Source: Halorhabdus sp. BNX81
GTDB taxonomy: Archaea; Halobacteriota; Halobacteria; Halobacteriales; Haloarculaceae
NCBI RefSeq assembly: GCF_029229925.1
Contig: NZ_CP107254.1
Location: 2,418,001 to 2,482,000 of the forward strand
Length of the DNA: 64,000 nt
Reading direction: 5' to 3'
A model generated the notes under the pieces. The model saw only the letters and a list, made by a program, of their open reading frames with translations, was not told where the DNA came from and searched no databases. Positions 13,475 to 16,760 of the stretch are shown piece after piece (positions within the stretch are counted from its first letter, which is position 1; the number at the start of each line of letters is the position of its first letter). A program made the translations under genes and the position numbers.

Positions 13475-13940
13475 GTGGCAGCGGGAGCCCGGCTCCCGTG
13501 CCCGGGACGTGCGTTCCGACAGCGTCGGAACGCGGCCAACGGGCATGAGGAAAGTCCCCCCACCGTCCGGGCAGGCGACCGGGCGCAAGCCCGGGGCGGG
13601 AGACCGCCGGCGCTGGAACAGAAACGAGACCACTCGCCCCGACCGATGAGGTGTGTGACCCCTGAGTGACAAAGTGCGGTCGATCCCCGTCGCAAGGCGG
13701 CCGGTCGGCCGGGCGAACAAACGACGGGAAGCCCAACCCACCGAGGGCGCGTCGCGACGTGGAACCCTACGGGCCCCACGCTCGCGACGAACTGGGCGCG
13801 CCATCCGGCGCGTCGACGGGCGAGAACGGATGGAACGGCGAATCCTCGCCGGTGCAAGTCCGCGTGACTGGTAGCCCGGACACGACGCGGACGCGTAGCC
13901 GAATGCCGACAACAGAAGGGGGCTTACTCCCCGCAGCCAC
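13475..13940 (+). ncRNA. rnpB: RNase P RNA (archaeal type)
   Basis: Catalytic RNA of RNase P, which trims tRNA 5' leaders, about 466 nucleotides. Universal blocks are visible: GAGGAAAGTCC near 13548, AACAGAAACGAGAC near 13617, and ACAACAGAAGGGGGCTTA near 13909-13925 in the 3' core. The ends pair as helix P1: GTGGC-a-GCGGG at 13475-13485 with CCCGC-a-GCCAC near 13930-13940. The gene lies in a 620-base gap between coding genes; translated frames across it are Arg/Gly-rich and not real proteins. The ends are set by the P1 pairing and may be off by a few bases. Confidence 0.92.
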
Positions 13941-14029
13941 CGTTTCTACCTCAGGAGTGGTGAGGCTGACCAGGATCGATCGCTGCCGTGACCCACTCGC
14001 TTATCCGGGAGCCACCGCTACGGACGCGT

Positions 14030-14188
14030 ATGCCCGAAACACTCGAAGTCGCCTGCGAGAACGACGATTGCGAACTCGACATGGTCGAACTCCACTACAC
14101 CTACGACATGCCCGAGGACGTCACCGTCGCGGACTTCCAGTGTCCCTACTGCGGGGAGACGGAACCACTCCGCAAGATCGAGGTCTGA
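14030..14188 (+). CDS. Small zinc-ribbon protein
   Basis: Fifty-two residues with two Cys pairs, C9-x4-C14 and C38-x2-C41, that can bind one zinc ion. The start MPETLEVACENDDC is chosen because residues added by an upstream ATG are basic and unlike the acidic body. Small zinc-ribbon proteins are abundant in haloarchaea, mostly without known function. It sits alone between the RNase P RNA and a convergent redox pair. Confidence 0.7.
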   Translation: MPETLEVACENDDCELDMVELHYTYDMPEDVTVADFQCPYCGETEPLRKIEV

Positions 14189-14229
14189 CGGCGAAAACGA
14201 GCGGTCACCGTCTGTGTGTCGCTCGCCGC

Positions 14230-14745
14230 TCAGAGATCCTCGATCGCCACCGCGATCGCGTCGTAGTCCGGGAACTCCGGCCATTCCGCCGCGACCCACG
14301 CGTATTCGACAGTCCGGTCTCCGTCGATGAGGAACGCGGCCGGGCGGGGCTCGCTGACGCCCGCCATCCCGTCGAGATCGTGGACGATGCCGTAGGTCTC
14401 GGCAACACCATTCTGTGGGTCGCTGAACAGCCGATAGGGCAGGGATGCCTCCGCGATGAAGTCCTTGTGCTCGTAGGGCGAGGAGATCGAGAGCCCGACG
14501 ACGGTCAGGTCGTCGTCGCTGCCCCACCCGCGGTCGGTGATCTCGTTCCAGATGTACGTCGCCGGGAAACTCCCGTCCATCGGGAAGAAGACGAGCAGGA
14601 CGGGACCGTCGGCCGTGAGATCTGACAGCGCGACGTCCTCCCAGTACTCGTCGGTGACCAGCGGGCGCTCGAAGTCCGGGGCCGCTTCGCCGGGCTGGGG
14701 ATGCTCGGCCGGGCCGAGGTCGACGACGTCGAAGGGCAACTCCAT
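14230..14745 (-). CDS. Redoxin (AhpC/TSA fold) lacking all cysteines
   Basis: A 171-residue protein with the peroxiredoxin/redoxin fold pattern (GEAAPDFERP, then LLVFFPMDGSF, then VVGLSISSPYEHKDF, then AAFLIDGDRTVEYAWV). At the site where peroxiredoxins carry the peroxidatic Cys, the sequence reads FPMDGSFPATYIW, and there is no cysteine anywhere in the chain. It therefore cannot be a classical peroxidase. It follows the glutaredoxin gene on the same strand, with one base between that stop and this ATG, so the two are translated together. It may be a binding or structural relative of peroxiredoxin. Confidence 0.75.
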   Translation of the reverse strand: MELPFDVVDLGPAEHPQPGEAAPDFERPLVTDEYWEDVALSDLTADGPVLLVFFPMDGSFPATYIWNEITDRGWGSDDDLTVVGLSISSPYEHKDFIAEASLPYRLFSDPQNGVAETYGIVHDLDGMAGVSEPRPAAFLIDGDRTVEYAWVAAEWPEFPDYDAIAVAIEDL

Positions 14746-14746
14746 G

Positions 14747-15031
14747 TCAGGCCTCCCCGTAGGTCCGATCGAGGTACTGGACGATGCGCTCGCTCTCGCT
14801 CATCGTCACGCCGGTCCGGTCATCGACGATCACCGGGACCGCGCGCTGGCCGCTGACCCGCTTGACGGCGTTGCGCTCGGAGTGCAGCGGCTCGACGAAG
14901 CGTGACTGATAGTCCAGGTCGTATTCCGAGAGCGTCCGCGCAACGCGCTCACAGAACGGACAGGCCTGGAGTCGGTACAGGGTGATGGTCGCGTCGCCTT
15001 CGTCGGACGCGTCGGTTGTGGACTCGCTCAT
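14747..15031 (-). CDS. Glutaredoxin-like protein
   Basis: Ninety-four residues with a glutaredoxin/GST N-terminal fold, active site CPFC at residues 24-27 and the RAVPVIVDD cis-Pro strand. About 15 acidic residues precede the fold. It would reduce disulfides or handle low-molecular-weight thiols (haloarchaea use gamma-glutamylcysteine). It is the promoter-proximal gene of a two-gene unit with the cysteine-free redoxin. Confidence 0.8.
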   Translation of the reverse strand: MSESTTDASDEGDATITLYRLQACPFCERVARTLSEYDLDYQSRFVEPLHSERNAVKRVSGQRAVPVIVDDRTGVTMSESERIVQYLDRTYGEA

Positions 15032-15127
15032 GGCGTTCTATGCTGGCTTGGGGCGAGCAACGGGTAAACACTGTGCTGGCTGCAGTTTTCGAGGACGGTA
15101 CGAAACGCCGCCATCAACCGGGTGGTG

Positions 15128-15136
15128 TTTTATTAA
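15128..15136 (+). promoter_or_regulatory. TATA box placed for the structured element
   Basis: TTTTATTAA centred near 15132, exactly 25 bases upstream of the first paired base (15157) of the structured element. This is the archaeal TATA-to-start distance, so a plus-strand transcript would begin where the outer helix begins. On the far side a weaker GTTTAGTTTA (minus strand, about 15687-15696) lies a similar distance from the other end and also overlaps the expected promoter of the epimerase gene. Confidence 0.5.
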
Positions 15137-15287
15137 ACAGGTCGCGGTTGCGAACAGCCAGAAAGCCCCCGCGCTCGCAGCTCCCGCGACTCGCTGCGCT
15201 CCGGTGGGTGCTTACGTCACCGGGAGAGCGAAGCTCTCCCGAGCCACGCGGCAGAGCCGCGGACGCCGGGGGTCGCTGCGAGCGCGG

Positions 15288-15346
15288 CCCCTTTCAGTCC
15301 CGCCCGATTCCGGTTGATCAGCCGGCCTGGGCGGGACTGAAAGGGG
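15288..15346. repeat. 18-bp perfect inverted repeat (helix P3)
   Basis: Arms 15288-15305 (CCCCTTTCAGTCCCGCCC) and 15329-15346 are exact reverse complements. The 23-base spacer itself folds as CCGGTT-GATC-AGCCGG with one G-T wobble. This is the longest uninterrupted stem in the structured element. Confidence 0.95.
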
Positions 15347-15439
15347 CGAGTGGCTCCAGGAAGACGGCCGACGCTAGACGCGAGGCGGCAGAGCCGCCTC
15401 AGCACGCGCGAACGGGCCTGTGGCCCGTGAGCGGACACC

Positions 15440-15571
15440 GTGGTTCGAGAGAGCGAAGCTCTCTCGTCATCACGAAAGGCGCAAAGCGCCTTTCGAACGA
15501 CAACGAAGTGAGGAGCGTGGTTCGAGACGGACTTCGTCCGTCTCGTCATCCCGGAAATCTTCGATTTCCGG
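15440..15571. repeat. Duplicated hairpin-pair units with compensatory stems
   Basis: Two units share a frame but not their stem interiors. Each reads GTGGTTCGAGA, stem, three-base loop, stem, TCTCGTCATC, then a second hairpin. In unit A (15440-15495) the first stem is CGAGAGAGC with loop GAA; in unit B (15517-15571) it is CGAGACGGAC with loop TTC. The second hairpins also differ completely (CGAAAGGCGC loop AAA; CCGGAAATC loop TTC). Both arms changed together while pairing stayed perfect, which points to selection on structure. Confidence 0.85.
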
Positions 15572-15749
15572 AGACAGCGAGGTCGTCGGACGGCGTCGCC
15601 GTCCGACTGTCCGAGGGACCGGCGGTCCCTCGCTACCCTCGACCGGAGCCACTCGGGGCTTTCTGGCACTCACATTCCATTCCTGCTAAACTAAACGCTA
15701 CGACCAACCGAGGCCAAACCGTCATGTAGCTCCCGCCCGGACCCGAGTT

Positions 15750-16760
15750 ATGGACGTACTGATTATCGGCGGTACTGGCGTCATCTCGACCGGCATCACG
15801 CGACAACTCGTCGAGGCAGGCCACGGCGTGACGATCTTCAACCGCGGAGAGACTGACATCGACATCCCCGATGCAGTCTCGGAGATCCACGGGGATCGCT
15901 TCGATCACGACGCGTTCGAATCGGCAGTCGCGGACGTCGAGGTCGACGTCGTCATCGACATGATGTGTTTCGGGAGCGAGGACGCCGAAAGCGATATCCG
16001 GGCCTTCGCCGGGGAGATCGAGCAGTTCATCTTCACCAGTACGGTCGACGTCTATCACCGCCCGCCCGAGCGTAATCCGGTCACTGAGGACGCCGCGCGC
16101 GAGCCGCCGGTCAGCGACTACGCCGAGGGCAAGGCCGCCGCCGAAGATCGCTTCCGGGAAGCAGAGGCCGAGGGTGCCTTCGACGTAACGATCATCCGCC
16201 CGTGGAGCACCTACGGCGAGGGCGGGGGAATCTTCCACACCTTCGGCGGCGGGACCTACTACATCGAACGGATTCGCCAGGGCAAACCCATCGTCGTCCA
16301 CGGCGACGGCACCTCGCTGTGGGGCTCGTGTCACCGTGACGATGTCGCCGCGGCGTACGTCAACGCCGTCGGCAACGAGGTCGCCTACGGCGAGACCTAT
16401 CACGTCACCAGCGAGGAAGTCATCACCTGGAACCAGTATCACCGCCGGGTGGCGGCCGCGCTCGACGCACCGGAGCCCGACCTCGTCCACATCCCGACTG
16501 ACGTCCTCCGGGAGGTTGCGCCCGACCGCACGGAGATGCTCCGGGATCACTTCCAGTACAGCACGGTCTTCGACAACAGCAAGGCCAAACGCGATCTGGA
16601 CTTCGAGTACACGGTTTCCTTTGAGGAGGGCGTCGAACGGACCGTCGCATGGCTCGACGAACACGACGGGATCGAGGTCGGCGAGGGTGACGCCTTCGAG
16701 GACGAACTTGTCGAGGCATGGCGGGCGTCGGCTGAGGACTTCCTCGCCAACTTCGAGTGA
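15750..16760 (+). CDS. NAD-dependent epimerase/dehydratase (extended SDR)
   Basis: A 336-residue Rossmann protein with the nucleotide-binding loop GGTGVIS at residues 7-13, the STVDVYH strand end, and the catalytic Tyr-x3-Lys in DYAEGKAAAE. It resembles the SDR branch of NDP-sugar epimerases and chloroplast CSP41-like proteins, and should act in the cytosol on a sugar nucleotide; the substrate is not evident. It lies just downstream of the structured element; an A/T stretch near 15687-15696 may be its promoter. Confidence 0.8.
   Translation: MDVLIIGGTGVISTGITRQLVEAGHGVTIFNRGETDIDIPDAVSEIHGDRFDHDAFESAVADVEVDVVIDMMCFGSEDAESDIRAFAGEIEQFIFTSTVDVYHRPPERNPVTEDAAREPPVSDYAEGKAAAEDRFREAEAEGAFDVTIIRPWSTYGEGGGIFHTFGGGTYYIERIRQGKPIVVHGDGTSLWGSCHRDDVAAAYVNAVGNEVAYGETYHVTSEEVITWNQYHRRVAAALDAPEPDLVHIPTDVLREVAPDRTEMLRDHFQYSTVFDNSKAKRDLDFEYTVSFEEGVERTVAWLDEHDGIEVGEGDAFEDELVEAWRASAEDFLANFE

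Follow-up and report, generated by a model that had tools for sequence, protein, structure and literature searches.

We propose that the stretch 15121–15702 of the window (the whole piece of DNA that was analysed, 64,000 nucleotides of contig NZ_CP107254.1 from Halorhabdus sp. BNX81) is a non-autonomous MITE of the IS6 family, whose core of 229 bp is interrupted by five modules that give ten hairpins. The MITE would have been moved in trans by an IS6 transposase since lost from the genome, and the modules would have entered later; mobile or mobilisable, they would insert without target duplication, often between a G and a C and in core sequence. We put the probability of this reading at almost nine in ten. 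What looks like a giant RNA then becomes a readable history, in which transposon ends enclose a palindromic core with five insertions nested in it.

The stretch and its IS6-type ends

The sequence-only reading described four perfect helices that follow each other with no unpaired base at the junction, and ten perfect hairpins with loops of three bases; all of these features are confirmed (Table 1). The stems of the hairpins are 6–10 bp long (at least 7 bp in nine of them), and chance was rightly dismissed as their origin: 500 base-composition shuffles gave on average 0.07 hairpins with a stem of at least 7 bp, and never more than one. The two strands fold with energies of −345.1 and −345.3 kcal/mol, each with a z score of about −12 relative to shuffles. 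This equal folding of both strands already pointed to palindromic DNA, and away from an RNA made from one strand. No family matched the stretch in an Rfam search of the window, the sole match being the RNase P RNA at 13477–13938.

Table 1. Positions of the element, its ends, helices and modules in the window.
Feature	Positions	Strand	Remarks
Left target-site duplication copy, ATCAACCG	15113–15120		8 bp; sister copies match 8/8 at the same offset
Non-autonomous IS6-type element (MITE)	15121–15702		582 bp; site empty in G006 and G004 (L156, L157)
Left terminal inverted repeat, GGTGGTGTTTTATTAAAC	15121–15138	+	consensus GGNNGTGTTTAGTTTAGC common to the full-length IS6 elements L172–L174, L176 and L181
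P1 helix	15157–15168 / 15656–15667		5′ arm / 3′ arm; perfect
P2 outer stem	15169–15181 / 15275–15287		perfect; P2 spans 15169–15287, interior with one inserted module
Module 1	15218–15263		46 bp; loops GAA, AGA; within P2; a 46-nt module at the same place differs between the orthologues L043 and L056
P3 helix	15288–15305 / 15329–15346		P3 spans 15288–15346; conserved stem CCCCTTTCAGTCCCGCCC/GGGCGGGACTGAAAGGGG round the element's centre of symmetry (TGATCA)
P4 outer stem	15347–15357 / 15645–15655		P4 spans 15347–15655, interior with four inserted modules
Module 2	15378–15435		58 bp; loops AGA, TGT; related 56- and 58-nt modules at the same site differ between L041 and L057 and between L043 and L056
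Module 3	15441–15500	+	60 bp; loops GAA, AAA; widespread TGGTT-(hairpin)-TCATCA-(hairpin)-AACGA family
Module 3 plus flanking G and C of its target	15440–15501		
Module 4	15518–15574	+	57 bp; loops TTC, TTC; variant of the TGGTT..AACGA family; inserted in GGAGCG^CAGCGAGG
Module 5	15583–15635		53 bp; loops GTC, GGC; a 53-nt module at the same site differs between the orthologues L041 and L057
Right terminal inverted repeat	15685–15702	−	reverse complement CGTAGCGTTTAGTTTAGC
Right target-site duplication copy, ACCAACCG	15703–15710		7/8 match to the left copy

The element is flanked by a glutaredoxin-like gene (minus strand) and by a gene for an NAD-dependent epimerase (plus strand). The two genes are 718 bp apart in the window, versus 127 in G006 and 120 bp in G004, which are sister species. 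Since the same gene pair occurs without the element in two sister species, the element is an insertion; that it was inserted, and not precisely excised in the sister species, is inferred from parsimony.

Among Halorhabdus copies at unrelated sites, the similarity of the flanks stops 38–41 nt outside the core, at the end of the terminal repeat; this additional piece terminates in GGNNGTGTTTAG..., and most copies have an 8-bp direct repeat directly outside. The target duplication is perfect (8/8) in L040 (CACCGGAT), in L041 and its orthologue L057 (TCCTCGAT) and in L042 (GAAAGAAT), and also in a copy from another genus, Haloarcula rara (L104, GATACTGC). It matches 7/8 in L043, like in the window copy, and none was seen at the ends of L059. 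For the window copy taken alone, whose ends (GGTGGTGTTT..) are degenerate and whose 8-bp duplication matches 7/8, the assignment as a MITE leans on the sister copies and on the empty site. The "TATA box" that the sequence-only reading placed upstream of the first helix (TTTTATTAAA, from 15128) does exist, but it sits within the left terminal repeat of a mobile element.

In G005, G001 and G002, elements about 697 bp long have the same ends (GTGTTTAGTTTAGC). These elements contain one open reading frame of 218 amino acids, which is an IS6 family transposase according to NCBIfam (E value 1.5e-50) and matches DDE_Tnp_IS240 in Pfam; two of these full-length elements (L174 and L181) have perfect 8/8 target duplications. 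The element in the window appears to have no transposase gene of its own: the overlapping reading frames of 15121–15702 are rich in Arg and Ser and run through the hairpins, and the 229-bp sister cores are too short to encode a transposase. The home genome (G000) keeps only a fragment of an IS6 transposase, of 46 residues with two stops, so that the element is probably stranded. With terminal inverted repeats, 8-bp duplications, empty orthologous sites and an autonomous IS6 partner, the idea of a palindromic mobile element, which had been put forward as the alternative to an RNA, is borne out.

Regarding the distribution of the transposase, there are 38 matches in G005, many of them with stops, compared with a single fragment in G000 and no match in G003, which we read as a recent burst followed by decay inside one genus. 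In G001, G002, G003 and G005 (L158–L161), the apparent 3′ end of the RNase P RNA is directly upstream of the epimerase gene; in the window (13477–15750), several genes and the element separate the two.

It is important to note that the core also exists outside the IS6-ended vehicle, and this counts against our preferred explanation. Many core copies (for example L046, L049, L052 and L053) have no IS6 ends, some being at the same site in three species; the flanks of these copies are too diverged to define boundaries. Two copies in G000, L038 and L051, have another type of end (..GTTCTCTGTWTCACTACG), and a direct repeat of 9 nt, CGTCGATCG, lies just outside the ends of L051. The same core thus seems to be carried by more than one kind of vehicle.

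The palindromic core and its modules

The feature recurs about 8–15 times in G000, as counted from searches, and there are 40 partial matches of the stretch in this genome. The stretch was matched in 54 of the 59 genomes compared, and a pattern scan of named genomes found 57 loci, of which 56 are haloarchaeal (in Haloarcula, Halomicrococcus, Natrinema, Halonotius and others). One match to the core pattern (L116) is on a contig labelled Saprospiraceae bacterium (CAKZSH010000068.1); it is either due to chance or to a mis-binned haloarchaeal contig. Of 195 Halobacteriales genomes, 22 contain the exact P3 sequence, which occurs 8 times in G000.

Folding and dissection of the copies define a common core of about 229–260 nt (P1–P4), in which P1 is GAAAGCCCC/GGGGCTTTC and P3 is CCCCTTTCAGTCCC../..GGGACTGAAAGGGG. 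The outer stems of P2 and P4 vary among copies yet remain self-complementary. The core is an inverted repeat, a single pattern matching L049, L082, L113 and L115 on both strands, and the interiors of P2 and P4 are therefore inverted copies of one motif. The core of the window copy is quasi-palindromic and has 229 bp. A pseudoknot formed by loop–loop pairing between P2 and P4 was also considered and dropped, because, in the copy that was inspected by eye, the variable stretches of P2 and P4 did not look complementary.

At one locus (L046, G000:C1:207752-208077), the core element is found at the same place in three sister species (L222 in G006 and L223 in G004), and G001 and G002, which are more distant, lack it. 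Compared with its orientation in G000, the element is inverted in G004, and in G006 it has a different P2 stem, which shows that cores also recombine.

The ten hairpins group into five modules of 46–60 bp, each made of two hairpins. When the five modules are removed by a script, 229 nt remain, which align without gaps to the uninterrupted core of L057, with 208 of 229 positions identical; the limits of the modules were set from differences between orthologues and from related sites. A module-free length of 228–229 nt is common to copies in three species. The odd four-way architecture is accounted for by the interruption of a core of this uninterrupted type by five modules.

Orthologous copies differ by such insertions. 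In L041 (G000) and L057 (G006), all 382 aligned positions of the element and its near flanks are identical, and the sole differences are insertions of 56 and 53 nt. A second orthologous pair has three differences of this kind (65, 46 and 58 nt), and a third pair has two (48 and 60 nt). None of these seven clean insertions has a target duplication; six of them are plainly two successive triloop hairpins, the 65-nt one being less regular. Such pairs, before and after insertion, make the movement of the modules experimentally approachable.

Modules 3 and 4 lead to a family that is exposed in nearly every haloarchaeal genome sampled. Its pattern, TGGTT-(hairpin)-TCATCA-(hairpin)-AACGA preceded by G and followed by C, is fixed only in parts round each hairpin. 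Two such module patterns matched 180 and 129 of 195 genomes, and almost none with the reversed control; the first of them (180/195) also takes in some coding matches. With a covariance model, the module was found in 113 of 116 haloarchaeal genomes, several of which have at least 40 copies. The copies are mostly between genes, on plasmids as well, and TGGTT..AACGA modules also occur outside cores, at sites without shared flanks and in genomes without a recognisable P3. No phage record matched the family; the 12 matches of the module patterns in viral contigs include no hairpin, and these contigs thus do not indicate that viruses carry the modules.

The flanking G and C of 71 copies fit insertion between the G and the C of a pre-existing GC. 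Some targets, for example CTCGCTG^CGCTCC and GGAGCG^CAGCGAG, belong to the core, and the flanks of the modules lean to CGNN-G^C-NNCG. A palindrome of at least 7 bp is present at 12% of the module sites versus 3% of the controls, a modest excess (rank test, p = 0.058). The modules are not preceded by any fixed tetranucleotide or other sequence of the kind expected for a HUH/IS605-type target.

Pairing at the level of DNA and rival explanations

The stems of the modules covary. In an alignment of 31 modules, which had been pre-filtered for near-perfect pairing, 98.6% of the cells are paired and 15 of 24 pairs have changed on both sides (93 cells), a level that none of 500 shuffles reached. In the stems of an RNA, G.U would be tolerated on a single strand. 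Among about 1,340 pairs from distinct sequences, taken from less filtered pattern-search hairpins from which clearly non-hairpin matches had been left out, we counted 11 G.T and 12 A.C mismatches. The test is strand-aware, the orientation of each module being fixed, and a 4:1 preference for G.T over A.C is rejected (p = 0.0006). Since the two mismatches are equally rare, pairing is maintained in DNA.

As far as can be judged from sequence, the modules work as DNA and not as RNA. It is likely that their stems stay complementary either by selection on the DNA hairpin or by correction of one arm by the other in replication; the hairpins would be extruded at replication, and there they would be selected or corrected against a template. 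Palindromes that are maintained at the level of DNA are a trap for covariance-based RNA discovery, and the comparison of G.T and A.C mismatches in covarying stems separates them from those that are maintained at the level of RNA. A box C/D RNA was also considered, the reverse strand of the module reading GTGATGA, which resembles box C, but there is no conserved box D and no preference for G.U.

The first candidate for the stretch had been a large noncoding RNA of an undescribed family, with a four-way junction and hairpins transcribed from a promoter at 15128. The fold is indeed very stable, the position is intergenic with a TATA-like stretch upstream, and the homologues do keep their pairing, with strong covariation. 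However, the balance between G.T and A.C speaks against RNA, the fold is just as good on the opposite strand, the pattern of the core fits the core itself in either orientation, and no Rfam family fits. The supposed TATA box belongs to a transposon end, and the orthologous sites in sister species are empty. We therefore consider the RNA very improbable. It is also hardly credible that the element is a PATE, which would be left over from an IS200/IS605 (HUH) transposon and would move as single-stranded DNA. The PATEs of haloarchaea have no coding capacity, contain many palindromes and attract small repeats (PMC3119063), but they have neither terminal inverted repeats nor target duplications, whereas the window element has both, and its partner is a DDE transposase. 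This explanation is already contradicted for the IS6-ended copies, and it would hold at most for the cores without IS6 ends.

Two other explanations concern the modules. They would not be mobile if the core first had all of them and the copies then lost them by precise, hairpin-mediated deletion. Hairpins can be deleted by replication slippage, and no target duplication is seen, but the places of the modules differ between copies, the module-free length is the same in three species, and the same module family is present at many unrelated sites in nearly all haloarchaea. Moreover, a continuous target such as GGAGCGCAGCGAG would have to be restored every time, and we find such deletions quite improbable. 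Alternatively, the main way in which the modules spread may be an exchange between core copies, by gene conversion or recombination, and not their own insertion. Modules 2 and 5 are at the same places in L031 and L041, and the inversion and the differing P2 at the L046 locus imply that cores recombine; this is nevertheless unlikely to be the main route, considering the TGGTT..AACGA modules that are found outside cores, on plasmids and where no P3 is recognisable. Regarding the preferred reading, in which the modules are mobile or mobilisable, a process coupled to replication is suggested by two features, namely that they make no duplication and that they prefer core sequence. Our best guess, a tentative one, is that the modules are moved by a replication-coupled hairpin-processing or recombinase activity that acts on single-stranded palindromes.

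Comparison with known systems

Like the modules, the REP and REPIN sequences that depend on RAYT in bacteria are dispersed intergenic palindromes, with paired hairpins, and are non-autonomous. REPs are marked by GTAG or CGTC tags and have a HUH transposase, whereas no fixed tetranucleotide precedes the modules.

SMR-A and SMR-B of Haloquadratum walsbyi are also small and non-coding, make no target duplication, are unrelated to known transposons, and insert into palindromic stretches of other mobile elements (PMC3119063). SMR-A are about 110 bp long, with a single prominent terminal inverted repeat, and no SMR-B is shorter than 80 bp (PMC3119063). The modules, with 46–65 bp and two triloop hairpins, are set apart from them on the basis of the SMR descriptions (HqIRS40-43 and HqIRS55).

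Double-hairpin mobile elements are described in fungal mitochondria (Allomyces; cited in PMC7218506), and the GC clusters of yeast mitochondria are tiny optional palindromic pieces (PMC4478555). Like these, the modules are tiny, optional, intergenic and palindromic, and mobility is deduced from presence or absence in relatives. The modules fit the double-hairpin form, since they have two hairpins and are optional between close relatives; this is a likeness of form only and not of sequence, and, unlike the mitochondrial elements, the modules are widespread on archaeal chromosomes and plasmids, with covarying stems.

As for the vehicle, the haloarchaeal IS6 elements in ISfinder have about 697 bp, GG ends and duplications of 8 bp. 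The IS6 family there also includes a MITE, MITEHarch3, which we take from its name to be haloarchaeal (PMC6807381). The IS6-family haloarchaeal MITEs (MITEHarch3; parents ISH14, ISH29, ISHarch12 and similar) resemble the window element in having no transposase, terminal repeats of the GG type and an 8-bp duplication. In contrast, the window element has a large palindromic core and five nested modules, and the text consulted mentions no such interior for MITEHarch3, with which the comparison is by description. As a transposon, the element appears to be a new IS6-type MITE.

A literature search found no description of the haloarchaeal module family, which does not prove that none exists. We slightly favour the view that the modules and their sister families form a genome-wide class of minimal haloarchaeal mobile elements. 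Putative dedicated machinery would recognise the shape of their DNA and move them with no duplication of the target. They would be a prokaryotic counterpart of the mitochondrial double-hairpin elements, with stems evolving by paired changes in DNA.

Last, we note a few details of the modules. The triloops are nearly free to vary, and reverse-complement pairs occur (GAA/TTC, AAA/TTT and GGA/TCC), as if the loops flipped by inversion between the arms. The closing stem, GTGGTT/AACGAC, has a G.G mismatch at its third position in 31 of 31 aligned copies; a few other module copies begin with GTCGTC or GTCGTT. In three genomes (L119, L276 and L280), modules lie in a separate dispersed palindrome, GTGAACCGCCTC-GGG-TCAA...CCC-GAGGCGGTTCAC, which is apparently another small repeat family.
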